This document shows, piece after piece, positions 6,162 to 39,690 of a stretch of 64,000 bases of DNA; position 1 is the first letter of the stretch; each line of letters begins with the position of its first letter. A program made the translations under genes and the position numbers. Under the pieces are notes generated by a model, which worked only from the letters and a program-made list of their open reading frames with translations, did not search any database and had not been told where the DNA came from. Source of the DNA: Chelativorans sp. J32 (lineage in GTDB: Bacteria; Pseudomonadota; Alphaproteobacteria; Rhizobiales; Rhizobiaceae). The stretch spans positions 1 to 64,000 of the forward strand of contig NZ_JAEQ01000010.1 of NCBI RefSeq assembly GCF_000518985.1, written 5' to 3'.

Positions 6162-6194
6162 TCCATGTGTGGCACTGTAACGAGGAACTGATTC

Positions 6195-13665: not shown

Positions 13666-16600
13666 GCGCGCCCGCTTACGCCGAATTGCAGGTGACGTCG
13701 CATTTCTCCTTCCTGCGCGGCGCGTCCTCGGCCGAGGAGCTGTTCGCCGCGGCGGCCGCGATGGGGATCGAGGCGCTCGCCGTGACCGATCGCAACACGC
13801 TGGCCGGCATCGTGCGCGCCCATGAGGCGGCGAAGGAGGCGGGGGTGCGGCTGATCGTCGGCTGCCGCCTCGATCTTGCCTGCGGCATGTCGGTGCTGGT
13901 CTATCCGACCGACCGGGCGGCCTATTCACGGCTTTGCCGATTGCTGTCGCTGGGCAAGGGGAGGGCGGGCAAGGCGCGCTGTCATCTCGAATGGGACGAT
14001 CTGGTCGCCTATGGCGAGGGGTTGATCGTGGTCCTGGCGCCGGACCTCGCCGACGAGACCTGCGGTCTGCGGCTGCGGCGCCTGCGCGATGCCTTTGGCG
14101 ATCGCGCCTATCTCGGCCTGACGCTGCGCCGGCGGCCCAATGACCAGATGCGCCTCTGGGAGCTGTCGACGCTCGCTGCGGGCCTAGGTGTGCCCACCGT
14201 CGTGACCAATGACGTGCTCTTCCATGAGCCCGGACGCCGCATCCTGCAGGATGTCGTCACCGCGATCCGGCACAATCTCACCGTCGATGCGCTCGGCACC
14301 CGGCGCGATCGCCATGCCGACCGCTATCTGAAGCCGCCTGCCGAAATGCACCGGCTCTTCGCGCGCTGGCCCGAGGCTTTGGCCCGGACGCGTGAGATCG
14401 CGGATCGCTGCCGCTTCTCGCTCGACGAGCTGCGCTATCAATATCCCGAAGAGCGCGACGATCCGGCGCTGACCCCGCAGGAGACCCTGGAGCGGCTGAC
14501 CTGGGAGGGCGCGGCGAGCCGCTATCCCGAGGGTGTCCCCGACGAGGTGACAGCGGCGCTGAAGCATGAGCTGGCCCTGATCGGCAAGCTCGACTACGCG
14601 CCCTACTTCCTGACGGTGAACAGCATTGTCCGCTTCGCCCGGTCGCGCGGCATCCTCTGCCAGGGGCGCGGATCGGCCGCGAACTCGGCCGTCTGCTATG
14701 TGCTCGGTATCACCGCGATCGATCCCGGCCGCAACGATCTCCTCTTCGAGCGTTTCGTCTCCGAGGAGCGCCGGGAGCCGCCGGACATCGACGTGGATTT
14801 CGAGCATGAGCGGCGCGAGGAGGTGATCCAGTGGGTCTATGAGCATTACGGCCGCGAGCGCGCCGCGCTAACCGCCACCGTCATCCGCTACCGCTCCAAG
14901 GGCGCGCTGCGGGACGTCGGCAAGGCCCTGGGGCTTCCCGAAGACCTGATCCAGACGCTGTCCGGCCAGCTCTGGGGCTGGTCCGAGGCCGGTGTGACCG
15001 AGCAGCAGCTCCGCGATCTCAATCTCAACCCGCAAGATCGCCGATTGCGCCTGACGCTCGAACTGGCCGCACAGCTTCGCGGCGCGCCGCGGCATCTGTC
15101 GCAGCATCCGGGCGGTTTCGTGCTGACCCACGACCGGCTCGACGATCTCGTCCCCATCGAGCCCGCGGCGATGGAGGGGCGCCAGATCATCGAATGGGAC
15201 AAGGACGATATCGACGCGCTGCGCTTCATGAAGGTCGATGTCCTGGCGCTCGGCATGCTGAGCTGCATGCGCCGGGGGCTGGACCTGCTGGCCGAGCACA
15301 AGGATATCCGCCTCGATCTGGCGTCGATCCCGGCCGAGGATCCGCGCACCTATGCGATGATCCGCAAGGCCGACACACTCGGCACCTTCCAGATCGAGAG
15401 CCGGGCGCAGATGTCCATGCTGCCGCGCCTGAAGCCCCGGACCTATTACGACCTGGTGGTGCAGGTCGCGATCGTGCGGCCGGGGCCGATCCAGGGCGAT
15501 ATGGTTCATCCCTATCTGCGCCGGCGCGAGGGTCTGGAAGAGGTCGACTATCCCCGGCCCGAGCTGGAGAAGGTGCTGGGCAAGACGCTCGGCGTGCCGC
15601 TGTTCCAGGAACAGGCGATGCGCGTTGCCATCGAATGCGCGGGCTTCACCGCTGGCGAGGCCGATCTCCTGCGCAAGAGCATGGCGACCTTCAAGCATAC
15701 CGGCGGGGTCTCGAAGTTCCGCGACCGGCTGATCTCGGGGATGATCGAGCGTGGCTACGAGCAGGACTTCGCGGAGCGGACCTTCCAGCAGCTCGAAGGC
15801 TTCGGCTCCTATGGTTTTCCGGAAAGCCATGCGGCGAGCTTTGCGCTGATCGCCTATGCCTCGGCCTGGCTCAAATGCTGGCACCCGGATGTCTTCTGCG
15901 CTGCGCTCCTCAACGCCCAGCCCATGGGCTTTTATGCGCCGGCCCAGATTGTGCGCGACGCGCGCGAGCATGAAGTGGAGGTCCGCCCGGTCTGCATCAA
16001 TGCCTCCCGCTGGGACTGCACGCTGGAGCCGACCGGAGACGAAAGCCGATTCGCCGTCCGCCTCGGGCTGCGGATGGTCAAGGGTCTCGCCAATGCCCAT
16101 GCCGCCGCCATCGTCGCGGCCCAGGGCGATGAGATGTTCACCTCGGTCGACGATCTCTGGCGGCGGGCGGGTGTACCCGTGGCGGCGCTCGATCAGATCG
16201 CGGCGGCCGACGGATTCCGCCCGGCGTTCGGTCTGGCCCGGCGCGAGGCGCAATGGGCCATCAAGGGGCTGCGCGACGAGGAACTGCCGCTCTTCGCCGC
16301 CGCCTCGGAGCGCGAGGGACGGACCGTTCCGGAACTCGACGAGCCGGCGATCGCGCTCAGAGCGATGCCTGCTGGCCGCGAGGTGGTCGAGGATTATGGG
16401 CATATCGGCCTGTCGCTGCGTCGCCATCCGGTCTCCTTCCTGCGCGAGGACCTGGCGAGGCGCCGGATCGTCACCTGCGCCGAGGCGATGGCGGCCCGTG
16501 ATCAGCGCTGGCTGGAGGCTGCCGGGATCGTGCTGGTGCGCCAACGCCCCGGTTCGGCCAATGGCGTCATGTTCATCACGCTCGAGGACGAGACCGGCAT

Positions 16601-16841
16601 CGCCAATCTCGTCGTCTGGCAGAAGATTTTCGAGCGCTATCGCCGGGTCATTCTCTCATCGAGCATGATCGCCGTGCGGGGCCGCGTTCAGCGCGAGGGC
16701 GAGGTCGTGCATCTCGTCGCCCATCGGATCGTCGATCTGTCGCGGGATCTGGCGACTGTCGTGCAGCGCGAGGTGGCGACGGACGGGCAGCAGGGGCCGG
16801 GGGCCGGCGGTATCAGGGTGAAGGCGCGGGATTTTCGGTAA
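13662..16841 (+). CDS. dnaE2: Error-prone DNA polymerase DnaE2
   Basis: A 1059-residue C-family polymerase. An N-terminal PHP domain (about 1-220) starts [18 protein letters not shown]. The palm has PDIDVDF near 373 with the catalytic aspartates and [19 protein letters not shown] before it. A helix-hairpin-helix and an OB fold (about 955-1040) follow, and there is no beta-clamp-rich tail like that of DnaE1. It extends past lesions during SOS mutagenesis with ImuA and ImuB. The ATG at 13662 overlaps the imuB stop. Being on an ICE, it makes inducible mutagenesis transferable. Confidence 0.95.
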
Positions 16842-16905: not shown

Positions 16906-17793
16906 TCACAAATCTTCTGGCCGGATCGACCATTCTGCGATTTCTCTATCGATCAATCGCCATTGCTCTAAAAGGTCGGCAAGGTCGGCGCTGTCTACGA
17001 CCGCATGATCGAGGCCCTCGAATTGGTCACCGAGATATGTGGCGAGGCCCGCACCGCCTTCGTTGGCGAACCACACTCCGACCAGATCCGCGATTTCCTT
17101 CAACTGCCTGAGAGTCTTTTCGGCATCGCGAATGTCGAAATCACCAAGCTCCCTGTCCTGCCGACTTTGCTTGTTCCCGGCATGAGCAACATGCGAGTTA
17201 ACGTGCTCGGCAATTCGATCAAGGCTGGCGAGCCGAGTTTCGATCTTCTCCAATACCGTGGCTGAGATCAGATCGCTCGGGTTACGCCCTGATGGAGACA
17301 CGCCGCTCAAAACATCGAAATGCCGATGCGCGGCCTGACTTTTCATGAGCTCTGGATCACCCCACACCGGACGCCCATTCGCGGCGACGAGGTGGTCATG
17401 TTGTTCTTGATGCAGGCGATCGAGATCGTATTGCGCGTCAAGCACTTTCTCGACGTAGATTCTCCTGGTCAACCAGTTTTGGCTCGCTTTCACGTCGTTG
17501 ACGACAGATCGGATCGAGTAAACTCCCTTGGGGCCATTGATCGGGGCCTTATCGAGAAGTCGGCGAGTGCCGAGAAGCAGGCTTGACCAGTACCCCTCGG
17601 AAACGAGATTGAACATCATCTGGTTAAGCGGGGGTCTCGAGCCTCTCTTCTCATTTGCAAGACGGACGATCCGAACCGTCGTGCGAAAGGCGGCGTAGTT
17701 CCAGAGCAGATCCTGAATGGTTCTGTGGATGCCCGTTGTCTCGTCGCGAAAAGCATCCCGCCACGTGGCGATGTGCTGGTCATGCTGCGTCAT
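16906..17793 (-). CDS. Putative HEPN/AbiU2-like protein
   Basis: About 295 helical residues with RLLDKAP near the first third and HVNSHVAHAGN in the second half. These resemble the conserved segments of AbiU2-type HEPN proteins, which tend to be RNases or abortive-infection factors, but the R-x4-6-H HEPN motif is not clear-cut. It lies alone on the minus strand between dnaE2 and the ArdC block, is less GC-rich than its neighbours, and may be a separate acquisition. A longer reading from 17880 is open; 17793 is preferred because TTGGAAAAC precedes it and the extra N-terminus looks non-native. Confidence 0.65.
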   Translation of the reverse strand: MTQHDQHIATWRDAFRDETTGIHRTIQDLLWNYAAFRTTVRIVRLANEKRGSRPPLNQMMFNLVSEGYWSSLLLGTRRLLDKAPINGPKGVYSIRSVVNDVKASQNWLTRRIYVEKVLDAQYDLDRLHQEQHDHLVAANGRPVWGDPELMKSQAAHRHFDVLSGVSPSGRNPSDLISATVLEKIETRLASLDRIAEHVNSHVAHAGNKQSRQDRELGDFDIRDAEKTLRQLKEIADLVGVWFANEGGAGLATYLGDQFEGLDHAVVDSADLADLLEQWRLIDREIAEWSIRPEDL

Positions 17794-17883
17794 TAGTTTT
17801 CCAAGCCTGAGCGCCAAACTCACCTCATCATACCGGCAGACGCCAACACCGGCGACGGCTATTCGCTTCTGATTCTTCATTCG

Positions 17884-18007
17884 CGCGGGCTCTTTTTATT
17901 GTTCCCGCGAATAAACGCGCATCTTGCCGTGGGCCTGACGGGGGAAGGCCTTCCCCCTGGCCGGCACTATCGTTGCCGGCGCACCCCCTTCAGCGGGGAG
18001 ACCCCGC
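17884..18007. repeat. Cluster of four hairpin-forming palindromes before ardC
   Basis: Four inverted repeats follow one another: CGCGGG/CCCGCG (17884-17889, 17904-17909), the perfect palindrome GGGGGAAGGCCTTCCCCC (17940-17957), GCCGGC/GCCGGC (17960-17965, 17975-17980) and GCGGGG/CCCCGC (17993-17998, 18002-18007). A fifth structure, the leader at 18045, follows. Such density suggests function in folded single-stranded DNA or RNA, for example a single-strand promoter or initiation site in the entering strand. Confidence 0.6.
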
Positions 18008-18044
18008 AACGCCCCCTGAGAGGGAGAGTGCGGACGGGTTTTCC

Positions 18045-18092
18045 GTGACGGGTTGAGTGCTGGAGGAGTGGCCTCCGGCGCCCGTCGCGGAG
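18045..18092 (+). promoter_or_regulatory. Structured RNA leader of ardC (copy A)
   Basis: GTGACGGG (18045-18052) pairs with CCCGTCGC (18081-18088); TTGAGT is bulged; GCTGGAGG (18059-18066) pairs with CCTCCGGC (18072-18079) around loop AGTGG. The ribosome site GGAG (18089-18092) follows at once and can itself pair with TTCC at 18041-18044, which would hide it. Copies B (19517) and C (25093) share this layout with compensatory base changes. Confidence 0.7.
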
Positions 18093-18101
18093 ATCATCCC
18101 G

Positions 18102-19058
18102 ATGGCCAGACAGGACCGCGCTCGCCCAGGCGGCGCCCGCAGCAATCTCTATGACGACATCACCGACAAGATCATCGCCGAGCTGGAGGAAGGACGGCTT
18201 CCCTGGGTCCAGCCTTGGGGGACTGCGGCGAAAGCGCCGCTTGCCATGCCGCGAAACGCCGCGACCTCGCGGCAGTATTCCGGGATCAATGTGCTGATCC
18301 TCTGGGGTGCCGTGGTCCAGAACGGCTATCCGACCCAGCATTGGCTCACCTATCGCCAGGCGGCAGCCCTCGGCGGCAATGTCCGTAAGGGCGAGCACGG
18401 CACGACGGTCGTCTATGCCGACCGCTTCACCCCGGAAGACGAGAAGCGCCGAGCCCGCGAGACCGGTGAAGAACCGGGACGCGTCCCGTTCCTGAAGCGT
18501 TTCACCGTGTTCAACGCGGCGCAATGCGAAGGCTTGCCCGAGGACATCGCTGTCGAGGCACCACCACCACCGCCAGGCATGATCGAGCCGAGGGTCGAGG
18601 CGCTGATCTGTGCCACTGGTATCGATTTCCGCATCGGCGGGGATCGCGCCTTCTATGTTCCGGCGCTCGACTATGTCCAGGTGCCGCCACCGGCCGCCTA
18701 TTTCGAACCGATCAACTGGCACAGGACGGCGCTCCACGAGATGGGTCACGCCACAGGCCATGCCTCGCGCCTGGGGCGGGATTTTTCGGGCAGTTTCGGC
18801 ACGAAGAAATACGCCTTCGAGGAGCTGGTGGCTGAGATGAACGCGGCCTTCTGCTGCGCCTCGCTCGGCATCGTGCCGACCGTGCGCCATGCCGACTACA
18901 TCGGCTCCTGGCTGGAGGTGCTGCGCGAGGATAACCGCGCCATTGTCCGCGCGGCCTCACAGGCCAGTAAGGCGGCCGACTGGCTGCTGGCGCATCTGCC
19001 GGCCGAAGATGCCGGGGAACCGGATCCGGCTGCAATCGACGAGAGGGTCGCGGCATGA
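18102..19058 (+). CDS. ardC: ArdC-type antirestriction protein
   Basis: A 318-residue protein. The N-terminal ssDNA-binding domain (about 10-130) includes YDDITDKIIAELEEGRLPWVQPW and NVLILW, and a C-terminal zincin-like metallopeptidase domain carries HEMGH near 211-215 with FEELVAEMNAAF supplying the third ligand. ArdC proteins bind incoming single-stranded DNA and protect plasmids from restriction in recipients. It is preceded by a structured leader and followed, with a 4-base overlap, by a DUF2958 gene, a standard pairing on alphaproteobacterial plasmids. Confidence 0.95.
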   Translation: MARQDRARPGGARSNLYDDITDKIIAELEEGRLPWVQPWGTAAKAPLAMPRNAATSRQYSGINVLILWGAVVQNGYPTQHWLTYRQAAALGGNVRKGEHGTTVVYADRFTPEDEKRRARETGEEPGRVPFLKRFTVFNAAQCEGLPEDIAVEAPPPPPGMIEPRVEALICATGIDFRIGGDRAFYVPALDYVQVPPPAAYFEPINWHRTALHEMGHATGHASRLGRDFSGSFGTKKYAFEELVAEMNAAFCCASLGIVPTVRHADYIGSWLEVLREDNRAIVRAASQASKAADWLLAHLPAEDAGEPDPAAIDERVAA

Positions 19059-19450
19059 TCCTCCTGACCGGAACACAGCGTGACCGGCTTCTGGCCAATG
19101 GATGCCAGCGCGGCGGGGATCACATCCCCGTCGTGAAATTCTTCAACCCCTTCGGCGCGGGCGTCTGGCTCGCCACCGAGCTGGATCAGGGCGGCGACAT
19201 CATGTTCGGCCTGGCCGATATCGGCTACCCCGAACTCGGCTCGTGGAGCCTGGAAGAGCTGCGTGGGGTCCGGTTGCCCTTCGGCATGGGGATCGAGCGG
19301 GATCTGCTCTTCACCGGGGATTTCCCGATCTCGGTCTGGGCGGAGGCTGCGTGGGAAACCGGCAGCATCCAGGCGGCGGAACGAGCCCTCTACCGCGCCG
19401 GTGCGGCATTCACCCGCACATCCACAGATACGGAAAGCCGGGAATCCTGA
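19055..19450 (+). CDS. DUF2958 domain protein
   Basis: A 131-residue protein of the DUF2958 family: LLTGTQRDRLLANG at the start, VVKFFNPFGAGVWLATEL, then DIMFGLADIGYPELGSWSLEEL and the LPFGMGIERDLLF block. The function of the family is unknown; it is almost always next to ArdC or ParB on plasmids and ICEs. Start ATG 19055 overlaps the ardC stop, so it is co-translated. A role in establishment after transfer is inferred from context. Confidence 0.92.
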   Translation: MILLTGTQRDRLLANGCQRGGDHIPVVKFFNPFGAGVWLATELDQGGDIMFGLADIGYPELGSWSLEELRGVRLPFGMGIERDLLFTGDFPISVWAEAAWETGSIQAAERALYRAGAAFTRTSTDTESRES

Positions 19451-19516
19451 TTTCCGGTTGCCGGCTTTGTGGCCTGGCGTCGCACTCTTCAGAGGAAGAG
19501 GGCGGCGCTTCGCTTC

Positions 19517-19565
19517 GTGACGGGTTGGAGGTCGAGAGAGTGGCTCCCGGCCGCCCGTGGCGGAG
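19517..19565 (+). promoter_or_regulatory. Structured RNA leader of the parB gene (copy B)
   Basis: GTGACGGG (19517-19524) pairs with CCCGTGGC (19554-19561) with one mismatch. GTCGAGAG (19531-19538) pairs with CTCCCGGC (19544-19551), seven of eight, around the same AGTGG loop. The GGAG ribosome site (19562-19565) can pair with CTTC at 19513-19516. The layout is that of copy A, one base longer on the right side. Confidence 0.65.
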
Positions 19566-19573
19566 AAATCACC

Positions 19574-21724
19574 ATGGCCAAAGCTGCCAGGAAGAAGCCC
19601 GTCGCCCCGATGATCGTCTTTTCACGGGCGCGCGACATTCCGTTCAACCGGATCAGGCTGTCGGACAGCAATGTTCGCGAGGCTGACGTCGAGGCGGGTC
19701 TGGACGAACTTACCCATGACATCGACCGGCGCGAGGATCTCGTGCAGGGCCTCAACGTTCGCGCCATCCTCGACGCGGACGGCGTTGAGACCGGCGATTT
19801 CGAGACCCCGGCCGGCGGCCGCCGCTACAGGTCCATCGCGCGCCTCGTCGAAGCCGGTCGCTTCCCGGCCGATGGCCTCGTCCCCTGCATCGTCAAGAAG
19901 GCCGATGCCAAGACCTCGGCAGTCGACGACTCGCTGGCCGAGAACCTGCTGCGCCTCGCCCTGCATCCGCTCGACCAGTTCAAGGCGTTCAAGCGGATGT
20001 TCGACATGGGCATGTCGAAGGAGGAGATCGCCGACGCCTGGCGGACCACGCCGCGCTACATCATGCAGCGCCTTCGTCTCGCGACGGTCGCGCCGGCGCT
20101 GCACGACGCCTATGCGCGGAATGAGATGACGCTGGCGATGCTGGAAGCCTTCACCGTCAATCCCGACCACGAGCGCCAGCAGCAGGTCTGGGAGCGGATC
20201 AGCACGTCGTGGCAGAAAGAGCCCTGGCACATCCGCAGCCTGCTGACCGAGACCACGGTTCCGGCTGCCGACAAGCGCGCCCGCTTCATCGGCATCGACG
20301 CCTATGAGGCGGCGGGCGGCCCGGTGCTGCGCGATCTCTTCTCCGACGAGAACGGCGGTTGGTTGCAGGACGTCACGCTGCTCGACCGCCTGGTTGACGA
20401 TAAGCTGCGCACTGTCGCCGACGAGATCGCCGGACAGGGCTGGAAGTGGATCGACGCGGCAGTCGAACTTCCCTACGGCTACGCCAACGGCCTGCGCAGG
20501 CTGGTCGGTGTGACCCAGGAGCTGACCGACGAGGAGCGCACCGCCCGCGAGGCGCTGCGCGACGAGTATGACGAACTCGAAGCGCAGTATGCAGAAGCCG
20601 ACGACCTGCCCGATGAGATCGACCAGCGGCTCGGGGAGATCGAAGCCGAGTTGGAAGGCTTCGAGAACCGGCCCGTCACCTTCGCGCCGGAAGACATCGC
20701 CCGTGCCGGTGTTTTCGTCAGCATCGACCGCGATGGCGAGTTGATCGTCAGTCCCGGTTATGTCCGCCCCGAGGACGAACAACCCGAGAGCGTCGATGGT
20801 GAGGATGCGGGCGAAGGTGCCGACCCGTCCGATCCCGATGCGGTGCAGCGCGCGGTTATCACCGTCGGCGGCGAGCCGGTCCCGGACGGCGATGAAGAGG
20901 AGGACGATGCCGTCAAGCCGCTGCCCGAGCGGCTGGTGACCGACCTGACCGCCTGGCGGACGCTGGCGTTGCGCAATGCGCTTGCCGAGAATCCGCGCGT
21001 CGCCATGACGGCGCTGCTGCACAAGCTGGTTCTCGATACTTTCGAGCGCACCGCCACCTCGGGAACCAGCCTCTATGCCGCCGTGCGTCACATCTATCTT
21101 CCCACGGATGCGACCGGGCTCGCTGACAGCGCCGCCGCGAAGATGATCGACGAGCGCGCGGACGCCTGGCGGGGCGACATCCCCGCTGGCGATGACGACC
21201 GGCTCTGGGACTGGATCGACGGTCTCGACGATGCCAGCCGCCTGGCGCTGCTCGCCCATTGCGTCAGTTTCGGGGTCAACGCGCTTTACGAGCGGCCCAA
21301 CCCCTATTCGGGGAATGGCATCTCGCAGCACGGTCTCGACCGCCGCATGGCCGAGGCCGAACGGCTGGCACAGGCCACCGGCCTCGATCTCGTCGAAGCG
21401 GGCTGGAGGCCCACGGTCGAGAACTACCTGGGTCGCGTGACCAAGACCCGCATCATCGAGGCGGTGCGCGAGGGCGCCGGCGATCGCGCGGCCGATCTCA
21501 TCGCGCATCTCAAGAAGGGCGATATGGCGAAGGAGGCCGAACGGCTCCTGGCCGATACCGGCTGGCTGCCGGAGCCGCTGCGCCCCGCCATCGAGGCGCA
21601 GGCCGTGGATGGCGCGACCGATCAGGACGAGGACAGCGTGGCGCTGCCCGACTTCCTCGCCGGTGGCCATGAGGACACGGCCGAGGCCGCCGACGATCCA
21701 GAGGCCCTCGTCGCCGCCGAGTGA
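19574..21724 (+). CDS. ParB/RepB-type protein, large
   Basis: A 716-residue protein. It has an N-terminal ParB-like domain (about 15-125) with GLNVRAILDADG, ETPAGGRRYRSIARL and DDSLAENLLRLALHPLDQFKAF, then a helix-turn-helix region KEEIADAWRTTPRYIMQRLRLATVAP. A long acidic, low-similarity C-terminus (about 300-716) has no function I can assign. It is far larger than partition ParB proteins and is not next to parA (51.5 kb); this class is common beside ArdC on rhizobial plasmids. It may bind and spread on, or process, incoming ICE DNA. Start ATG 19574 has GGAG nine bases upstream. Confidence 0.9.
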   Translation: MAKAARKKPVAPMIVFSRARDIPFNRIRLSDSNVREADVEAGLDELTHDIDRREDLVQGLNVRAILDADGVETGDFETPAGGRRYRSIARLVEAGRFPADGLVPCIVKKADAKTSAVDDSLAENLLRLALHPLDQFKAFKRMFDMGMSKEEIADAWRTTPRYIMQRLRLATVAPALHDAYARNEMTLAMLEAFTVNPDHERQQQVWERISTSWQKEPWHIRSLLTETTVPAADKRARFIGIDAYEAAGGPVLRDLFSDENGGWLQDVTLLDRLVDDKLRTVADEIAGQGWKWIDAAVELPYGYANGLRRLVGVTQELTDEERTAREALRDEYDELEAQYAEADDLPDEIDQRLGEIEAELEGFENRPVTFAPEDIARAGVFVSIDRDGELIVSPGYVRPEDEQPESVDGEDAGEGADPSDPDAVQRAVITVGGEPVPDGDEEEDDAVKPLPERLVTDLTAWRTLALRNALAENPRVAMTALLHKLVLDTFERTATSGTSLYAAVRHIYLPTDATGLADSAAAKMIDERADAWRGDIPAGDDDRLWDWIDGLDDASRLALLAHCVSFGVNALYERPNPYSGNGISQHGLDRRMAEAERLAQATGLDLVEAGWRPTVENYLGRVTKTRIIEAVREGAGDRAADLIAHLKKGDMAKEAERLLADTGWLPEPLRPAIEAQAVDGATDQDEDSVALPDFLAGGHEDTAEAADDPEALVAAE

Positions 21725-21733
21725 CGCGCAGCA

Positions 21734-21757
21734 GCGGGGCGGCCTCCGCCGCCCCGC
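21734..21757 (+). terminator. Strong hairpin after parB
   Basis: GCGGGGCGGC (21734-21743) and GCCGCCCCGC (21748-21757) form a perfect 10-bp stem with loop CTCC, starting 10 bases after the parB stop. There is no T run, so termination would need Rho or the hairpin may instead protect the mRNA end. Confidence 0.5.
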
Positions 21758-21778
21758 ATTCCATCCCTTCCATCTGAA

Positions 21779-21815
21779 GGCCCGGCATCTCGCCGGGCCG
21801 CTTTCGTTTCAGGAG
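21779..21815 (+). promoter_or_regulatory. GGCCCGGC hairpin plus TTTCAGGAG leader, copy 1
   Basis: GGCCCGGC (21779-21786) and GCCGGGCC (21792-21799) form a perfect stem with loop ATCTC. It is followed by CTTTCGTTTCAGGAG, whose AGGAG (21811-21815) is the ribosome site of the gene starting at 21823. The same arrangement recurs at 22322 and 25731. Confidence 0.6.
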
Positions 21816-21822
21816 CAAGATC

Positions 21823-22299
21823 ATGTCCGCTTCCCTCATTTTCGACATTGCGCCTCTCGGCTCGCTCGTGGCCTATAGCGACGGCCAGCCGAAACCGCCC
21901 GCACGTTTCACCAAGAAGCTCGCCGCGTGGAAATCCCGCAACGGGGCCGGTCGCCTCGTGCGCAAGGAACCGGGCCGCGAGCGCCCGACCTACACGACGC
22001 CGCCGTCCTTCACCCTGCATGAGGGTGATTTCGGCGAAGGCGGCATCATCCTCATCACCATCATGCGCAGCTACGGCATCGACAGCGATCTGAGCTTCCG
22101 GGTTGTCGAACGCCCGAAGATCGGTCAGGTCCGTGTTGTGCAGGATGTCGGAGAGAACGTCGAATTGCTGCACCTCGCGGAGAACCACGAGGCGGCCGAA
22201 CTCTGGCTAGCCAGGAACGGCTACAGCCGCGCGCGCCTCGAGGAGATCACCGCCGACGAGGCAGGCGCCGATGCCGTCGAGGGTCGAGCTGCCGCGTGA
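21823..22299 (+). CDS. Hypothetical conserved plasmid/ICE protein
   Basis: A 158-residue soluble protein. A basic middle (PPARFTKKLAAWKSRNGAGRLVRKEPG) is followed by YTTPPSFTLHEGDFGEGGIILITIMRSYGIDSDLSFRV and a helical acidic C-terminus. I do not recognise a domain. It starts with a very good AGGAG after the hairpin leader and belongs to the run of small plus-strand genes after parB. Composition and codon use are typical of its neighbours, so it is very likely real. Confidence 0.8.
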   Translation: MSASLIFDIAPLGSLVAYSDGQPKPPARFTKKLAAWKSRNGAGRLVRKEPGRERPTYTTPPSFTLHEGDFGEGGIILITIMRSYGIDSDLSFRVVERPKIGQVRVVQDVGENVELLHLAENHEAAELWLARNGYSRARLEEITADEAGADAVEGRAAA

Positions 22300-22321
22300 C
22301 CATCGCCGATCCCGTTCATCC

Positions 22322-22364
22322 GGCCCGCTTGTCCCGTGACGGCGGGCCTTCTTCGTTTCAGGAG
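22322..22364 (+). promoter_or_regulatory. GGCCCGC hairpin plus TTTCAGGAG leader, copy 2
   Basis: GGCCCGC (22322-22328) and GCGGGCC (22342-22348) enclose a 13-base loop. CTTCTTCGTTTCAGGAG follows and supplies the ribosome site (22360-22364) of the gene at 22371. The tail is nearly identical to copies 1 and 3. Confidence 0.6.
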
Positions 22365-22370
22365 AACACA

Positions 22371-22637
22371 ATGGCCATTCCCGATCCCGTTCGAACGAAC
22401 TTCGACACTCTGCTTCGTGCTGCCGATGACGGCAATCTCGCCCTTATGGAATGCCTCGACGCCGCGACCCGTGAGACACGCTATGTCCTGTGCGCGGTCG
22501 GCCGCGACGGGGGTGATTACGTCTTCACGCCGTTCGGCCATCTCGCAAGCGGCAACCCCTATGACGCCTATCTGCCGCCGGATCCCGACGATCCTGCCGG
22601 CTTTGTCGAGAAGGCCGAAGATGGGGGCGCATCATGA
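22371..22637 (+). CDS. DUF6117-like small protein
   Basis: An 88-residue protein: MAIPDPVRTNFDTLLRAADDG, LALMECLDAATRETRYVLCAVGRDGGDYVFTPFGHL, NPYDAYLPPDPDD. This matches, from memory, the DUF6117 family found on alphaproteobacterial plasmids; its function is unknown. ATG 22371 is chosen over an upstream GTG because AGGAG lies six bases before it. Its end overlaps the next start, so the two are coupled. Confidence 0.85.
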   Translation: MAIPDPVRTNFDTLLRAADDGNLALMECLDAATRETRYVLCAVGRDGGDYVFTPFGHLASGNPYDAYLPPDPDDPAGFVEKAEDGGAS

Positions 22638-22930
22638 TGACGGTCGATGAAATCTTCGCCGATGACCGCCGCAATCCGCCATCGGAGCGCTCGCTTCCCT
22701 GGGAGGAAACCCGCAACGGCGTCACCGTCATCGTGGAACCGAAACCGCATTGGGCCGAGGACATGCGCGCCTTCCGGCTCGATGCCCGCGAATACTGCCG
22801 CTATGCCGACTGGACGGCCCATGGCGCCCGGACGCGCTTTTTCGGTCATATCGACACCTCCGGCGACGATGTGATGATGAAGGCCCGCGCCATGATCGCC
22901 CGCGAAATCGCCGATGGGTTCTGGGACTGA
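22634..22930 (+). CDS. Hypothetical small protein
   Basis: A 98-residue protein starting 4 bases inside the previous gene (ATGATG at 22634). It contains VTVIVEPKPHWAEDMRAFRLDAREYCRYADWTAHGARTRFFGHIDTSGDDVMMKARAMIAREI. It is probably a small soluble alpha/beta protein. No family recognised. Coupling with the DUF6117-like gene suggests a shared job in the establishment block. Confidence 0.75.
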   Translation: MMTVDEIFADDRRNPPSERSLPWEETRNGVTVIVEPKPHWAEDMRAFRLDAREYCRYADWTAHGARTRFFGHIDTSGDDVMMKARAMIAREIADGFWD

Positions 22931-22984
22931 CCGGCCCTGAAAGCCGAACCTTGCACACGGGGCTATCGGGTATCGCTGCACAAG

Positions 22985-23090
22985 CAGCGATGGATCGAGT
23001 TCGAGCTTCACCATTGCGCCAACTCCTTGGTGTTGTGGGGGTAACGGGTTCCGTCCCCGGCCTGAAACACACCCTGAATATCCGCCGGCA
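22985..23090 (-). pseudogene. Decayed inverted copy of the small gene at 23355
   Basis: On the minus strand this stretch reads VFQAGDGTRYPHN and, in another frame, MVKLELDPSLL. The intact plus-strand gene has VFQAGDGTHGAMP and MVKLELDPFG. At the DNA level about 80 bases are similar, in opposite orientation, 350 bases apart. It is a broken, frameshifted relic of an inverted duplication. The rest of 22931-23303 shows no gene that I can support. Confidence 0.55.
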
Positions 23091-23303
23091 ACGAGGCTGG
23101 CGCAGCAAAGCATCTGCGACGGGTTTCCGGCACCGGCTCGACGCAAAGCACCATCCCCCGCTTCCATTCGCTAACCTTGGTCCGACCGTCTCTTTGCATT
23201 CAACCCCGGTGGGGTCGGCTTACGCGCGCGTGCCGCCCTCGGGGATTCGGAAAGAATCCGAACGCCCGAGGGTGATTGCAGATCCGGTCAGACACTTCGG
23301 GCG

Positions 23304-23345
23304 CCTGTCGCGCGGGGGATGGTCCCCCGCCTCCAAAGACAGGAG
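23304..23345 (+). promoter_or_regulatory. Nested hairpin leader overlapping the ribosome site
   Basis: An inner stem GCGGGGGA/TCCCCCGC (23312-23319, 23323-23330) with loop TGG is enclosed by CCTGTC/GACAGG (23304-23309, 23338-23343). The outer 3' arm includes the first bases of AGGAG (23341-23345), the ribosome site for 23355, so folding should limit initiation. Confidence 0.6.
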
Positions 23346-23354
23346 CCGGAACCC

Positions 23355-23519
23355 ATGTCCTACGCAGATGCCACCGCTTTCGCCGCCAGCCTCGCCACCA
23401 CGCTGATGGTCGTGATCGTCGTGTTCCAGGCCGGGGACGGCACCCACGGCGCCATGCCCGCCGACGAGTTCGACGGCGACGAAGAGATGGTGAAGCTCGA
23501 ACTCGATCCCTTCGGCTGA
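23355..23519 (+). CDS. Small membrane protein of unknown function
   Basis: A 54-residue protein. Residues about 8-27 (AFAASLATTLMVVIVVFQAG) form one membrane segment, followed by an acidic tail DEFDGDEEMVKLELDPFG that should be cytoplasmic or periplasmic. The ribosome site AGGAG is good but lies in a hairpin. A degraded inverted relative lies just upstream. It ends within a hairpin (GAGGCGC/GCGCCTC, 23518-23535) that overlaps the stop codon. Confidence 0.7.
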   Translation: MSYADATAFAASLATTLMVVIVVFQAGDGTHGAMPADEFDGDEEMVKLELDPFG

Positions 23520-23543
23520 GGCGCGAAAGCGCCTCCGCCCGAC

Positions 23544-23573
23544 GGCCCGGCCCGCGTCAGGCGCAGCCGGGCC
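23544..23573 (+). repeat. GGCCCGGC/GCCGGGCC hairpin, copy without TTTCAGGAG
   Basis: GGCCCGGC (23544-23551) and GCCGGGCC (23566-23573) repeat the stem of the leaders at 21779 and 25731, but the TTTCAGGAG tail is missing. The 23575-23729 stretch that follows holds further stems (GGCGG/CCGCC and GGAGAG/CTCTCC) ending in TGGAGG before the gene at 23730, again a hairpin leader. Confidence 0.5.
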
Positions 23574-23729
23574 TTGTGCCATGCGCAGGCTGCGCATCGC
23601 CAGCGGCGGTGCCGAGGCCTCGCCTCGGCTCTGGAAAGGGAGAGTTGGGCCGGGATCGGGGCGAGCCTGGCGGAAGGAGAGGAGAGCGCCGCCGGGCCAT
23701 ATCATCCCGCTCTCCTGGAGGATCATCCA

Positions 23730-24218
23730 ATGACCGATACCGACAAACCAGCCACGCCGGAATTCGACATGGCCGCCAGCGTCGCGCGCTTCTTCGCCGA
23801 GCGCGATGAGCGCAACCGTCGCGCTGAAGCGGTCCGTCCCGACAACAAGACGGCGCTGTTCGATGCGCTGGCCGCCGCAGGCATCACTCTCGTGACCGTC
23901 ACCTTCGACGGTTCTGGCGACAGCGGCCAGATCGAGGACATCACCGCGCAATCGGACGACCGGACCGTGGACCTGCCGCAGGGCGAGATCACCATTGCCA
24001 CGGTGGCATGGGGAACCGACAAGGTGACCGCAATCTCAATGGGCGTTGAGGCGGCCATCGAACAGCTCGCCTATGACTTCCTCTCGGAAACCCATGGCGG
24101 CTGGGAGAACAATGATGGCGCCTATGGCGAGTTCAGCTTCGATGTGGCGGCGCGCACCATCACGCTCGACTACAACGAGCGCTACACCGCCACCGAATTC
24201 TACAGTCACGAGTTCTGA
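23730..24218 (+). CDS. DUF6878-like protein
   Basis: A 162-residue acidic protein: NKTALFDALAAAGITLVTVTFDGSGDSGQIEDI, GEITIATVAWG, EAAIEQLAYDFLSETHGGWENNDGAYGEFSFDVAARTITLDYNERY. From memory this is the DUF6878 family of plasmid-borne proteins, function unknown. It has a TGGAGG ribosome site and a structured leader. It is followed after 10 bases by a DUF6915-like gene, so they form a pair. Confidence 0.82.
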   Translation: MTDTDKPATPEFDMAASVARFFAERDERNRRAEAVRPDNKTALFDALAAAGITLVTVTFDGSGDSGQIEDITAQSDDRTVDLPQGEITIATVAWGTDKVTAISMGVEAAIEQLAYDFLSETHGGWENNDGAYGEFSFDVAARTITLDYNERYTATEFYSHEF

Positions 24219-24228
24219 GGGGGTGGAA

Positions 24229-24609
24229 ATGGCACATCCCTATCATCATGCGCTCTCGTCGGTGAAGAAATGGGGCGGCACGGTCGAGGATTACTTGCCC
24301 ATCCATAGCTGGTTCGATGCCAGCAAGGAGATCCTGGCCGATTTTCGTCATCGCGCGCTTCGCCACCATGCCGAGGGCATCTTCATGGCCGAGACCATTT
24401 TCGGGGCGACGATCACCCTGTCCACCGGCAGGGTGATCCCGGCCCGATGGGTCGGGGAGCAGCATGTCCGCGAGGATCTGGGCCGTATCCCGTCCTTCGC
24501 CGATTGGGCGCGGGCAATCCACCCGGCGCCTTGGATGGGGCGGACGCAGCGGATCGAGGCGGAGGTCGATCCGCATTGCGTCAATGGCCGACTTCAGGAA
24601 GAAGTCTGA
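24229..24609 (+). CDS. DUF6915-like protein
   Basis: A 126-residue protein: AHPYHHALSSVKKWGGTVEDYLPIHSWFDASKEILADFRHRALRHHAEGIFMAETIFG, then HVREDLGRIPSFADWARAI. The many conserved His and the opening match the DUF6915 family as I remember it. It may bind metal; no reaction is known. GGGGTGG precedes the start. Part of the establishment block. Confidence 0.82.
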   Translation: MAHPYHHALSSVKKWGGTVEDYLPIHSWFDASKEILADFRHRALRHHAEGIFMAETIFGATITLSTGRVIPARWVGEQHVREDLGRIPSFADWARAIHPAPWMGRTQRIEAEVDPHCVNGRLQEEV

Positions 24610-24648
24610 GCAGTCGCGTCAGCCTCCCCCTTATGAAAGCCTCTTGCC

Positions 24649-25017
24649 ATGCTCAGCCATATCGTCATCTCCGTCCTGCTCTGCACGGCTTCCTGCGAAC
24701 CGGCGGAAATCCGCGTCTGGGACGGTGACTCGATCCGGCTGGGTATGGGACAGCAGTCCGAAGCTGTTCGGATATTCAACATCGACGCTCCCGAAATGGA
24801 GGGCCGCTGCATCCATGAAACCGACCTTGCCCGGCAAGCGAAGATCAGGCTGGCGGAAATCCTGCAAGGTCGGCGGGTCGAAATCCTGCGTCAGGGGACC
24901 GACCGCTATGGCCGGACCCTGGCGGCGATACGCGTCGAAGGCCGCGATGTCGGCGATATTCTCGTCGATGAAGGGCTGGCGAGAACCTGGGCCGGGCGGC
25001 GTGAGCCCTGGTGCTGA
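24649..25017 (+). CDS. SNase-like thermonuclease family protein, exported
   Basis: A 122-residue protein. The short hydrophobic N-terminus (LSHIVISVLLCTASC) is a signal peptide, perhaps a lipoprotein one with Cys at about 16. SNase motifs are VWDGDSIRLGM, RIFNIDAPEM, and GTDRYGRTLAAIRVEGRDVGDILVDEGLA; unlike the protein at 3411 it keeps RYGR, so it could be active. It would cut nucleic acid in the periplasm or at the envelope. Two related but different nucleases on one ICE is notable. Confidence 0.85.
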   Translation: MLSHIVISVLLCTASCEPAEIRVWDGDSIRLGMGQQSEAVRIFNIDAPEMEGRCIHETDLARQAKIRLAEILQGRRVEILRQGTDRYGRTLAAIRVEGRDVGDILVDEGLARTWAGRREPWC

Positions 25018-25092
25018 TCGCCGGATCGTCCCGCCGAGGTGCGGGACGATCCACCGTCGGGACGGGAGAGTAAGAGTGCGGGCCGGTTGGCC

Positions 25093-25140
25093 GTGACGGA
25101 TTGTGAGGCGGGAGAGGGGCTTCCGCCGTCCGTCGCGGAG
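25093..25140 (+). promoter_or_regulatory. Structured RNA leader (copy C)
   Basis: GTGACGGA (25093-25100) pairs with TCCGTCGC (25129-25136), the last pair being A-T where copy A has G-C. GGCGGGAG (25107-25114) pairs perfectly, with one wobble, with CTTCCGCC (25120-25127) around AGGGG. GGAG (25137-25140) follows and the start codon is 9 bases on. These compensatory changes argue for an RNA (or ssDNA) fold. Confidence 0.7.
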
Positions 25141-25148
25141 CATTCCCC

Positions 25149-25706
25149 ATGAGCCTTTCCCACCACACCACTTTCGCCTCGATCGGCGAAATTGTCGCGC
25201 GACAGATCCTGCCCCGGCTGCGTCATGCCCAGAAGCTGCCGCTGCGCATCTCCTGCATCGGTATCGCCAGCGATGACGAAAGCGATGACGTCGGCGGCTT
25301 CGAGCGCACGCTCGTCATCGGCCAGTGCCAATCCCCCGAAGAGGCGTTGATCATCGCCAGCCAGCGCGTTGCGCGCGGTGATTTCCGCGTTGGACAGGGC
25401 GATGCGCTGCGCTTTCGCCCCCGCGTCATGGTCATTCAGGACAACGAACTGGGCCTTGTCCTTGCCGGTGAGGTCCGGGCCGGGATCGTGCTCTGGCAGC
25501 ATCCGGTCGCCTCCGACGCCGAGGCTCGCCGCACCGTCACGGAGGCCAGCCGTCTGCGGGGCATGGCCTTCACGGCATCCGGGCGCGGCGATGCGGTATC
25601 GGCTCGTGATCTCCGCCACCGCGCCAGCCTGCTCGAGGCGCGGCTGGTCGATCCCTTCTGGCGCGAGACGACTGCCGATCTGCTGCGGCTGCCACAAGCT
25701 GCCTGA
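25149..25706 (+). CDS. Hypothetical protein with covarying RNA leader
   Basis: A 185-residue soluble protein: FASIGEIVARQILPRL, RISCIGIASDDESDDVGGFERTLVIGQCQSPEEALIIASQRVARG, then DALRFRPRVMVIQDNELGLVLAGEVRAGIVLWQHP. No family recognised. It shares its leader type with ardC and parB, which suggests it is expressed with them. Composition is that of a real gene. Confidence 0.8.
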   Translation: MSLSHHTTFASIGEIVARQILPRLRHAQKLPLRISCIGIASDDESDDVGGFERTLVIGQCQSPEEALIIASQRVARGDFRVGQGDALRFRPRVMVIQDNELGLVLAGEVRAGIVLWQHPVASDAEARRTVTEASRLRGMAFTASGRGDAVSARDLRHRASLLEARLVDPFWRETTADLLRLPQAA

Positions 25707-25730
25707 CCTGTCGCCCCTTTCCATCCACTA

Positions 25731-25766
25731 GGCCCGGCCCCGCGCCGGGCCTTCTCGTTTCAGGAG
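25731..25766 (+). promoter_or_regulatory. GGCCCGGC hairpin plus TTTCAGGAG leader, copy 3
   Basis: GGCCCGGC (25731-25738) and GCCGGGCC (25744-25751) flank a CCCGC loop. CTTCTCGTTTCAGGAG follows, with AGGAG at 25762-25766 before the start at 25773. Stem and tail match copy 1 almost base for base although the flanking genes are unrelated. Confidence 0.6.
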
Positions 25767-25772
25767 CCTGAC

Positions 25773-26189
25773 ATGGCCGACTACTTCACCCATTTCTCCT
25801 GCCTGCTCGACGTGGGCAGCCCCGAGAACGCCGCCCGCGCGCTTGATCTCTACAACGCGCTGGCGCGCGAAAACGCCGCCGAAGATCCGCCCTCGGACGG
25901 CTTCATGCTTTCGATCCAGCCCGAACATGGCGGCACCCAGCTCTGGATGCGCGATGACGGCACCGGCGATCCCGAGCATGTCATCCAGTTCGTCAAACGC
26001 TGTGCCGCCGCGTTCGGCCTGACCGGGCTATGGGGGATGCAATACGCCAATACCTGCTCACGTCCGAGAATCGACGGGTTCGGGGGCGGCGCGCATGTCC
26101 TCGACCTCGCCACCGGCGAGACGGTGGACTGGATCTACACCGACGGTTGGCTTTCCACCGTTCTGGACGGGGGCGACCCCAATGCCTGA
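25773..26189 (+). CDS. Hypothetical conserved protein
   Basis: A 138-residue protein: YFTHFSCLLDVGSPENAARALDLYNAL, GFMLSIQPEHGGTQLWMRDDGTGDPEHVIQFVKRCAAAFGLTGLWGMQYANTCSRPRIDGFGGGAHVLDL. It resembles small plasmid-encoded proteins I have seen without assigned function. It overlaps the next gene by 8 bases, so the two are coupled. Confidence 0.8.
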   Translation: MADYFTHFSCLLDVGSPENAARALDLYNALARENAAEDPPSDGFMLSIQPEHGGTQLWMRDDGTGDPEHVIQFVKRCAAAFGLTGLWGMQYANTCSRPRIDGFGGGAHVLDLATGETVDWIYTDGWLSTVLDGGDPNA

Positions 26190-26826
26190 CGTCATCGAAA
26201 CCACGGTCTATCGGCTCGACGAGCTTTCCGAAGCCGCGAAAGACAATGCCCGCGCCTGGTATCGCGAGGGCGGCTTCGACTACGATTGGTACGATGCCGT
26301 CTATGAGGATTTCCGGCGGATCGCGGACATCCTCGGCATCCGCATCAAGAGCCGCACCGTCCGCCTCATGGGCGGCGGCGTGCGACAAGAGCCTTGCATC
26401 TGGTTTACGGGCTTCTGGTCGCAGGGCGATGGCGCCGCGTTCGAAGGCCACTATTCCTATCGCAAAGGCACGGCGGCGGAAATCCGTACCTATGCGCCGA
26501 AGGATGTGGAGCTGCACCGCATCGCGGATGCCCTGCACCAGGCGCAACGCCGCAACTTCTACCAGTTGACCGCCGAGGCGACCCATCGGGGGCGATACTA
26601 TCACGAATACTGCATGGCGATCTCGGTCACCCGCGACAGCCCGACCTGGCAGGACATGACCGCCGATGCCGAGGAGACCGTCATGGAGGCATTGCGCGAT
26701 CTCGCCCGTTGGCTTTATCGCCAGCTTGAGCGCGAATACGACTACCTGACTTCGGATGAGGCGGTCGATGAGGCCATCGTTGCCAACGAATACAGCTTCA
26801 CAGTTGATGGAAAGCGCTTCGGCTGA
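26182..26826 (+). CDS. Conserved protein, sometimes labelled antitoxin of a stability system
   Basis: A 214-residue protein beginning DVIETTVYRLDELSEAAKDNARAWYREGGFDYDWYDAVYEDFRRIADILGI. Proteins with this start are often annotated, without proof that I know of, as an antitoxin of a toxin-antitoxin stability system. It has a glycine-rich middle (GGGVRQEPCIWFTGFW) and a helical C-terminus. No toxin partner is evident next to it. It overlaps the 25773 gene by 8 bases. Confidence 0.8.
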   Translation: MPDVIETTVYRLDELSEAAKDNARAWYREGGFDYDWYDAVYEDFRRIADILGIRIKSRTVRLMGGGVRQEPCIWFTGFWSQGDGAAFEGHYSYRKGTAAEIRTYAPKDVELHRIADALHQAQRRNFYQLTAEATHRGRYYHEYCMAISVTRDSPTWQDMTADAEETVMEALRDLARWLYRQLEREYDYLTSDEAVDEAIVANEYSFTVDGKRFG

Positions 26827-26843
26827 AACCCTTCTGCGCTGCC

Positions 26844-27481: not shown

Positions 27482-27596
27482 CGCATATCACTCCAGATGT
27501 TCTCCGCTATTCTGCACAAGATGGTCCAGATAATGGTCCACTTCAAGCCCCCAGAGCGAAAGGAGGGCCGGGAACAGGTGCCCCCGGACGGGTTGA

Positions 27597-27635
27597 GAGA
27601 GGGTCGTCCGGCAGGTGCCCCTTTCCCTCTCGGAG
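27597..27635 (+). promoter_or_regulatory. Hairpin leader next to the ribosome site of the ArdB/KlcA-like gene
   Basis: GAGAGGG (27597-27603) pairs with CCCTCTC (27625-27631), directly followed by GGAG (27632-27635). An inner GGC/GCC stem has loop AGGT. Just upstream CGGACGGGTTGAG resembles the GACGGGTTGAG start of leader A. The alternative stem CCGGACG/CGTCCGG overlaps the left arm, so two folds compete. Confidence 0.45.
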
Positions 27636-27642
27636 ACCGATC

Positions 27643-28065
27643 ATGGCTTTGCCCGAACTTGCTTCCCAATCCGCAATCCGCGTCCCCGACGAGCGCCGCA
27701 TGGACTTCCTGCCGCGCCTTTTTGGCCGGCGCCTGCTCATCATCGGCGAGCATACCGTCTTTCGCTTCATGGAGATACTCAGCCCCGGCGATTACGGCGG
27801 CGGGCTCTGGGATTTCTACGAACGCGCCGGCCAGCCGCTCTATCTCGCGCCGACCTCAAAGCCCCGTTGCCGCCTGTTCTGCGAAGGCAACGGCTTCGAG
27901 GGCGAGGTCTCAAGCGATGCCGCCGGGATCATCGCCACGCTCTTCGCCTTCTCGCATCTTTCCTTCCGCTACGATGACGACGAACTCGCCGAGGGCTATG
28001 GTCGCCTCTACGAGCATGCCGCCGATCACGCGGAGGCGGCGGCGATTTTCCAGGCCATCGACTGA
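27643..28065 (+). CDS. ArdB/KlcA-family antirestriction protein
   Basis: A 140-residue protein with the family core: RMDFLPRLFGRRLLIIGEHTVFRFMEILSPGDYGGGLWDFYE, then LYLAPTS and SDAAGIIATLFAFSHLSF. ArdB/KlcA proteins inhibit type I restriction without mimicking DNA charge. It is the second antirestriction gene of the element after ArdC. A hairpin leader precedes it and a clear terminator follows. Confidence 0.88.
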   Translation: MALPELASQSAIRVPDERRMDFLPRLFGRRLLIIGEHTVFRFMEILSPGDYGGGLWDFYERAGQPLYLAPTSKPRCRLFCEGNGFEGEVSSDAAGIIATLFAFSHLSFRYDDDELAEGYGRLYEHAADHAEAAAIFQAID

Positions 28066-28071
28066 AACCCA

Positions 28072-28104
28072 CAAGCGCCCAGCCTGACGGTCGGGCGCTT
28101 GTTT
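28072..28104 (+). terminator. Rho-independent terminator after the ArdB/KlcA-like gene
   Basis: CAAGCGCCC (28072-28080) pairs with GGGCGCTTG (28093-28101), followed by TTT. It lies 6 bases after the stop of the antirestriction gene, so that gene is its own transcription unit. Confidence 0.75.
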
Positions 28105-28174
28105 CATGCCTGCTTTCGCCACGGCTTCAGAGCGAGAGATGGGCCGGAAGGGGTTTGAGCCGGTGCGGTCGAGA

Positions 28175-28209
28175 GAGAGCGCTGCCCGGCTTGATCCTGA
28201 CTTGCTCTC
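28175..28209 (+). promoter_or_regulatory. Hairpin upstream of the strawberry-notch gene
   Basis: GAGAGC (28175-28180) pairs with GCTCTC (28204-28209); CGAGGAA serves as ribosome site just after it and the start codon is at 28224. It follows the general pattern of a stem placed immediately before the ribosome site seen at many genes of this block. Confidence 0.4.
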
Positions 28210-28223
28210 CCGAGGAATCCCCG

Positions 28224-39559: not shown

Positions 39560-39690
39560 TCAAACCCTTAGCAACTGTCGTGAAATAGTTGATATTGGGG
39601 CGTGAAAGCTGGTGCAAGCACCAAGCTTGCAAGCTCTCGAAGCTGCGGCAAGTCGTCGCGATGCAGGTTTGGCAGATCCACGCTACGTCC

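Follow-up and report, generated by a model that had tools for sequence, protein, structure and literature searches.

The 64,000-nucleotide stretch of Chelativorans sp. J32 DNA studied here (contig NZ_JAEQ01000010.1 of RefSeq assembly GCF_000518985.1, positions 1 to 64,000; hereafter the window) carries six leaders that precede six genes, among them ardC-like and ardB-like antirestriction genes. Three of these leaders, A, B and C (type 1), are members of an RNA family without a match in Rfam; the other three, D, E and F, are longer and constitute a second type. The occurrence of such shared leaders before anti-restriction and neighboring genes suggests a shared control acting on the mRNA. With a probability of roughly 0.5, we consider that they make up an element-wide translational regulon of establishment genes, in which cis-acting mRNA leaders would be served by one GA-binding trans-factor.

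An earlier note on this DNA had placed three leaders at positions 18045, 19517 and 25093, and all three are present there, with the order it described: an outer 5' arm, a bulge starting with TTG, an inner hairpin, an AG(T/G)GG loop, the outer 3' arm and GGAG. The outer 5' block reads GTGACGGG in A and B and GTGACGGA in C, and the exchange of an outer G-C pair of copy A for A-T in copy C is real. The unit itself begins 26 nucleotides (nt) further 5', at 18019, 19491 and 25067, with the near-invariant motif AGAGNNAGAG, which is absent from that note. On folding, each of the three forms a bulged two-part hairpin, and GGAG is separated from the ATG by 9, 8 and 8 nt in A, B and C, respectively (Table 1). 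The outer stem had been described as 8 base pairs (bp) long; this block is there, but in leader A the helix comprises 14 bp and extends into GGAG. Likewise, the view that pairing is kept while the inner stems differ holds across the family, where these stems covary, but pairing is imperfect in copy B, where a single G.G mismatch interrupts the outer helix and a single A.C mismatch the inner stem. The AG(T/G)GG loop is found in A, B and C, but AGAGG prevails in the family (third base A in 105 of the 120 distinct rows of alignment A4). Within the window, AGAGNNAGAGNNNGG with at most one mismatch occurs 12 times against 4.4 expected, a count reached by none of 100 shuffles; the six leaders account for six of these matches. 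GTGACGGRTTG alone matches exactly only three times, namely in A, B and C; with one mismatch it is found 6 times against 2.0 expected, which is barely above chance (5 of 100 shuffles reach 6). That the leaders go beyond chance is settled by their conservation across elements. No exact antisense copy of the 5' motif is present in the window, and the four minus-strand matches to AGAGNNAGAGNNNGG each carry a mismatch.

Table 1. Leaders in the window and the genes that follow them (R1 and R2 are search models described in the text; aa, amino acids)
Feature	Position	Strand	Match and landmarks
Type 1 leader A, before ardC	18019..18101	+	R1 seed, 91.5 bits (match by construction)
Leader A landmarks	AGAGGGAGAG 18019-18028; outer helix 5' arm from about 18042; GGAG 18089-18092; start codon 18102		
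ardC-like antirestriction gene, 318 aa	18102..19058	+	Pfam ArdcN 2.1e-44, MPTase-PolyVal 4.5e-50
Type 1 leader B, before ParB-like gene	19491..19573	+	R1 seed, 74.8 bits; folds; GGAG 19562-19565
ParB-like gene, 716 aa	19574..21724	+	Pfam HTH_ParB 4.6e-4, under curated cut-off; NCBIfam ParB-type models far below cut-off
Type 2 leader D, before DUF6878 gene	23635..23729	+	R2 44.1 bits, outside seed
DUF6878 gene	23730..24218	+	Pfam 7.1e-58
Type 1 leader C, before 185-aa gene	25067..25148	+	R1 seed, 82.9 bits; GGAG 25137-25140; start codon 25149
185-aa gene	25149..25706	+	no Pfam or NCBIfam match
Type 2 leader E, before ardB-like gene, diverged	27553..27642	+	R2 23.0 bits, E 3.5e-6, outside seed
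ardB-like antirestriction gene	27643..28065	+	Pfam Antirestrict PF03230 3.2e-38
Type 2 leader F, before Strawberry-notch-type helicase gene	28129..28223	+	R2 seed, 80.7 bits; 35-sequence alignment A5
Strawberry-notch-type helicase gene, 1449 aa	28224..32573	+	Pfam AAA_34 2.7e-121, Helicase_C_4 4.7e-99

The family extends far beyond this element, as a covariance model search of the kind suggested in the earlier note reveals. The seed alignment A2 consists of 13 of the 15 leaders in alignment A1 (the diverged L007a and L008a were omitted), all 13 of which came from blastn matches and a sequence pattern in the loci and not from a structure search. The covariance model built from them, R1, matches in 20 of 289 sampled alphaproteobacterial genomes (17 of 224 genera), and in 32 of 398 genomes drawn across the phylum, all of them being the genome of the Chelativorans strain itself or from its family, order or class. 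With leader A as the blastn query, 100 plasmid records were matched, with 80% or more of the query covered in 45, and a pattern scan of named species genomes returned at least 120 stretches; among the 80 listed, 77 bear names that we recognized as alphaproteobacterial, two are called "Proteobacteria" only and one "Bacterium" only. Neither the phylum draw nor these 80 stretches, which together do not amount to a full test, contained a type 1 member clearly outside the Alphaproteobacteria, and leader A found no blastn match among 50,697 phage records. Three contigs of a viral collection (L182, L183 and L184) contain the type 1 pattern; they may be phages or mislabelled plasmids. In the 4.7-Mb genome of the strain itself, the matches at E <= 0.001, three of each type, all lie inside this one island. 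The earlier note could not place the leaders in a known RNA family, and Rfam gave no match to them: a scan of the window with Rfam 15 at gathering scores reported only 5S, tRNA and ROSE and nothing at the leaders, and a permissive scan of 17000-27000, a range that includes leaders A to D and ends before E and F, gave three weak snoRNA matches, none of them at A to D.

Searching the 80 listed loci and 35 earlier sources with R1 (130 and 60 matches) yielded 170 distinct type 1 leaders, and a sequence pattern lacking AGAGNNAGAG gave 134 distinct matches (those within 40 bases of a locus end were omitted), which hence provide a non-circular check of the 5' box. In these 134, AGAGNNAGAG is found no more than 34 nt upstream as an exact copy in 114 and with one mismatch in 18, and is missing in 2; it typically starts about 26 nt before GTGACGG and does so at exactly this distance in 101. 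The spacing from GGAG to ATG is 7-9 nt in 129 of them. AGAG stands 81-84 nt ahead of the ATG in 145 of the 169 type 1 leaders whose start is readable, and conservation spans the region from this AGAG to the start codon; in the 80 nt further upstream no column of the 170 elements exceeds 0.35 bit. We rejected the idea that the leader is a read-through coding sequence, as 113 of the 169 contain an in-frame stop.

The predicted fold is well reflected in the alignments. In A3, whose rows were not pattern-selected although they were found with the covariance model, 94.7% of the cells pair, and 17 of the 21 pairs show two-sided changes; the corresponding values for A4 are 93.2% and 14 of 21, with conservation there being partly imposed by the search pattern, which prescribes most of the outer helix as well as the bases innermost in the stem. 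None of 500 shuffles equalled the native pairing of A3 or A4, a statistic that ignores relatedness, and sliding the partners by 1-3 columns lowered pairing to 33-52%. Because the shuffles ignore relatedness, we devised a tree-aware test, in which the changes inferred for each column are re-placed at random on a FastTree tree. When the 2,556 column pairs of the 170 sequences are ranked in this way, the top six are all pairs of the model. If the test is limited to the structure, 5 of the 21 model pairs attain E < 0.05, all of them in the inner stem; the outer helix varies too little to be informative on covariation. The expectation of many matches with significant covariation was therefore borne out in the number of matches and in the six top-ranking pairs, but single pairs are significant only in the structure-limited test. 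The column pair 16-23 of type 1 ranks seventh, next to the pairs of the structure; its signal may stem from a short upstream hairpin or from gene-specific subfamilies.

The pairs also disclose which strand is folded. Over the 170 leaders, the pair cells comprise 2,680 Watson-Crick, 622 G.U, 61 A.C and 162 other combinations, and those of the 13 seeds 205, 49, 5 and 13, respectively; the latter count is the cleaner one because the 170 leaders were chosen by a model favoring G.U. Since G.U cells become A.C mismatches on the opposite strand, these numbers argue against a promoter formed by the single-stranded template and against a cruciform; the excess of G.U points to a folded RNA of the mRNA strand and not to the opposite DNA strand. 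The leaders thus combine covarying sense-strand helices with a fixed distance to the start codon, as a structured cis-acting mRNA leader should. By these data, the fold, the nature of the leaders as sense-strand RNA, their start-codon geometry, their restriction to the island in the genome of the strain and their target genes are all supported.

Two explanations that would move the activity of these sequences from RNA to DNA can be weighed against these counts. In Frpo/ssi promoters, the transferred DNA strand folds to form the -35 and -10 boxes (PMC11541004). A promoter of this type, active on the incoming strand, would be in keeping with target genes of the same kind as those in the anti-defence islands of that paper, with repeated hairpins that all lie on one strand in the window, and with the position of the module upstream of the relaxase gene both here and in plasmid pLX01, by which the template strand could be the transferred strand. 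However, the 622 G.U cells turn into A.C on the very strand that would need to fold, so that no template-strand fold emerges; the hairpin ends at GGAG and leaves little room for a transcription start before the ribosome-binding site; and neither inspection of the conserved unit by eye nor a sigma-70 scan at the leaders brought up a -10/-35-like sequence. We give this explanation the least credence. An operator or promoter of a shared transcription regulator, next to which the hairpins would be incidental, would suit the fixed spacing and the strictness of AGAGNNAGAG, as expected for a DNA-binding protein, but is improbable, as both the compensatory changes in the inner stem and the preponderance of G.U over A.C indicate a folded sense strand. 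Moreover, the 80 nt upstream show no conserved sequence resembling a promoter, and a scan of 17800-28400, of a kind that covers alphaproteobacterial promoters poorly, placed its two sigma-70-like sites away from the leaders. A terminator scan found none at the six leaders, and TTTT occurs within 8 nt of GGAG in only 5 of the 134 pattern matches; this rarity of a U run after the leader makes attenuation at an intrinsic terminator unlikely.

Leaders D, E and F contain AGAGNNAGAG, a ACGGGTTTGAG-like stretch, a GAGAGAG tip and other helices than type 1, followed by CUCUCC or a similar sequence and the ribosome-binding site; D and E are more diverged than F. The sequence-only model R2 was made from 35 leaders including F; these form alignment A5, for which 35 of 56 rows were picked by eye (11 rows of type 1 and 10 further type 2-like rows were omitted, and three rows were trimmed). 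R2 matches are found in 14 of the 289 genomes of the class, two of them short and partial, and the other 12 genomes are all among the 20 that contain type 1; in pLX01, a match directly precedes a gene labelled strawberry notch. When upstream regions of relatives were surveyed, the 5' motif with at most one mismatch was seen before 9 of 10 helicase, 5 of 5 ardB-like and 4 of 7 DUF6878 rows; the helicase rows are homologous DNA, and the type 2 leaders were found again without the helicase query. Relatives of the ardB-like gene possess clearer type 2 leaders than E (L063, L081, L093, L113 and L139, all five rows), and those of the DUF6878 gene have a type 2 leader at the same place in L006, L007 and L008 and lack it in L089, L122 and L135. 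Because the MAFFT alignment misplaces the variable arms, we assessed the type 2 hairpin by swapping its arms between leaders: the native combinations average -20.2 versus -18.0 kcal/mol, and none of 300 swaps was as low, with the mis-anchored L079 kept among the 35 rows. RNAalifold, applied to the type 2 alignment, drew a different fold, in which a GAGAGCG tip pairs with CGCTCTC before the ribosome-binding site and 1 of 15 pairs shows a two-sided change; type 2 may adopt this pairing instead, or a pseudoknot at the tip. Possible partners of CUCUCC are the 5' box, the tip and, in some leaders, the GAG of the ribosome-binding site; because these bases hardly vary, covariation does not tell them apart. 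Types 1 and 2 are related, with different helices and the same GA boxes: their common denominator, which the earlier note did not name, is the GA-rich 5' motif together with a hairpin bearing a GAGAG tip. In addition, positions 238-340 of L177, which precede a remote ParB-like match (30% identity, from residue 73), hold AAAGGGAGAGTGGGCC, a different hairpin and an ATG, and are perhaps a third leader type.

From these features we infer an effect on translation, a trans-factor and a timing. In the model that we favor, the leaders would be cis-acting mRNA elements placing separate cistrons of an establishment island, that is anti-restriction and early DNA-processing genes, under one control at the level of translation. 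The transcript would lead from the AGAGNNAGAG box via the bulged two-part hairpin with its GAGAG tip to the ribosome-binding site, which would adjoin the outer helix in type 1 and come shortly after the CUCUCC stretch in type 2. A single trans-acting factor (most likely a protein, which the element itself may encode) would bind the repeated GA motifs and, once bound, set the access of ribosomes, and the genes would switch together upon entry into a new cell. A factor that reads these boxes is favored since both types share them, as a double box at the 5' end and a single one at the hairpin tip. The type 1 hairpin, by pairing with GGAG, would keep resting translation low, and folding bears out the partial sequestration that the earlier note had proposed: the mean unpaired probability of GGAG is 0.18 in 167 type 1 leaders versus 0.30 at 350 control starts (P = 5e-9). 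Leaders are found before internal cistrons as well as before first genes, B beginning 40 nt after a DUF2958 gene and C 49 nt after a nuclease gene, and this placement suits a control exerted cistron by cistron. Rather doubtful is the more specific proposal that both leader types are read by one RNA-binding factor of the element or the host that the recipient lacks, with the consequence that translation would burst on entry and then be shut off; if true, this would amount to a translational form of zygotic induction.

Several observations weigh against such a regulon. In the tree-aware test over all column pairs, no pair is significant with the 170 sequences, and none attains E < 0.05 with A4 alone. 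With up to one mismatch allowed, the 5' motif is missing from 3 of 7 distinct DUF6878 upstream regions and 1 of 10 helicase ones. The start codons of type 1 are no more hidden than those of the controls, and the ribosome-binding site of type 2 is largely unpaired (0.63, n = 35, in folds that end with the ATG, as those of type 1 do not), so that sequestration is not the common denominator of both leader types. The switch at which the earlier note had hinted gained little support: A and C each allow an upstream stem that would compete, but support for it across the family is weak according to the predicted energies, with a mean of -3.35 versus -2.99 kcal/mol for swapped partners in 165 leaders, a small gain that none of 200 swaps reaches in a test inflated by related sequences. 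Furthermore, we identified no trans-factor, and the ribosome itself could be what the conserved GA boxes serve, with no need for a factor.

The last point leads to the main rival, a constitutive leader for translation or stability, in which ribosomes would use the GA boxes as a standby site and the hairpin would shield or present the ribosome-binding site, with neither factor nor switch. The likeness of the GA-rich boxes to a ribosome-binding sequence, the open site of type 2 and the want of both a clearly conserved competing stem and a regulator would all agree with it. We nevertheless regard it as unlikely, if still to be reckoned with, as the 5' box is stricter than this role needs (at most one mismatch in 132 of 134 matches, 101 of them at exactly 26 nt), and a type 1 helix that hides GGAG more than controls do would be odd for an enhancer of translation. 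A self-contained RNA sensor, either a metabolite riboswitch or a thermosensor, would account for the nearly invariant bases of the tip and the 5' box and for the hidden GGAG of type 1. It is very improbable, considering that the fold is a small one of two helices without a junction, that its G+C-rich helices are ill suited to melting, and that Rfam offers no riboswitch or thermosensor match at the leaders, the sole ROSE match residing elsewhere on the minus strand (45670-45772).

The genes behind the 169 type 1 leaders with a readable start are 80 ParB-like genes, 38 ArdC genes, 27 members of a cluster containing DUF932-labelled proteins (Pfam DUF932 is just under the cut-off in two of three tested members), 11 members of the 185-aa family and 13 others or broken frames. 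RadC was dismissed as a separate target: the RadC-labelled genes of two plasmid records fall into the 185-aa family, and the one tested has no Pfam match. In the class sample, 19 of the scored ParB-like genes reach 45% identity or more across most of the gene, and each of these has a leader directly upstream (positions compared by eye). The next full-length ParB-like gene, at 42% identity, is without one, and no clear leader was seen at nine ParB-like places of at most 42% identity without a strong model match, a subset of such places in which G105 and G252 match from residue 73 and the stretch of G288 is cut by a contig end. The ParB-like protein was considered as the regulator and set aside; a relative exists in 17 of the 20 leader-bearing genomes and is missing in G065, G096 and G247. 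ArdC is present in 10 of these 20. A second recurrent leader accompanies the island: at 21779-21838, 22327-22372 and 25730-25774, before three island genes, a G+C-rich terminator-like hairpin is followed by TTTCGTTTCAGGAG or a similar sequence and a start codon, and similar ends recur in relatives (rows L089 and L135).

With a serine recombinase gene beside tRNA-Met, a relaxase gene (55567-57336) and a coupling protein gene (57361-59346), the window looks like an integrative element. In its island, which is situated upstream of the relaxase gene, all leaders share one strand; pLX01 of Thioclava has the same arrangement. Relaxase genes are typically located in the region that enters last, as PMC11541004 has it, and a leading, first-entering position of the island is consequently plausible; the targets of the leaders are of the establishment kind. 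Beside the anti-restriction island, an OLD-type AAA/TOPRIM gene, a pair of phosphoesterase and SMC-like genes and a HEPN AbiU2-type gene (4095-9946 and 16906-17880) are possible defence cargo, and a DNA polymerase III alpha homologue (1158-aa open reading frame, 13365-16841) lies within the element. The ROSE RNA thermosensor at 45670-45772 (57.2 bits) is found near FtsH-like, trypsin/PDZ protease and KaiC-like genes (38123-43116), a region that we take to resemble a mobile heat-tolerance cluster.

The timing with which conjugative elements express anti-restriction and establishment genes is known for few systems, and these rely on single-stranded-DNA promoters or promoter repressors. A structured mRNA leader shared by several such genes in many Alphaproteobacteria would add a further level of control. 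It would also serve as a marker for candidate anti-defence genes, such as the 185-aa family and DUF6878, and as a handle for finding the regulator. No description of this leader was met in the literature searched, outside of which most subscription papers and preprints fall, and an earlier description is therefore possible.

Leaders that mask the ribosome-binding site and are bound by RNA-binding proteins are well established, for instance the autogenous leaders of ribosomal proteins. They share with type 1 a bulged hairpin adjoining the ribosome-binding site and invariant bases at its tip; the difference is that several unrelated cistrons of a mobile element have the leader in common here. 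The nearest analogue is EGeRS1 before ardC of pLS20, which is described in PMC8708921 as a 400-600 bp upstream region in pLS20-family plasmids of Bacillus. There, too, a conserved sequence rich in inverted repeats precedes several establishment operons of one conjugative element, ardC included, and its mechanism is given as unknown. The leaders studied here differ from EGeRS1, by description and not by a sequence comparison, as 80-100 nt mRNA segments of Alphaproteobacteria that end at the start codon: conservation begins with the AGAG 81-84 nt before the ATG, and a conserved region of 400-600 bp is not found, with nothing conserved in the 80 nt beyond. From Frpo/ssi promoters, as PMC11541004 describes them, they are set apart by covariation and G.U pairs held by the sense strand and by a unit in which no promoter boxes were seen. 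Zygotic induction by protein repressors of the p576 type, which control promoters according to PMC8708921, would have a similar expected outcome, with establishment genes being turned on after transfer and then off; in contrast to that system, the conserved element resides here in the mRNA and not in the promoter.

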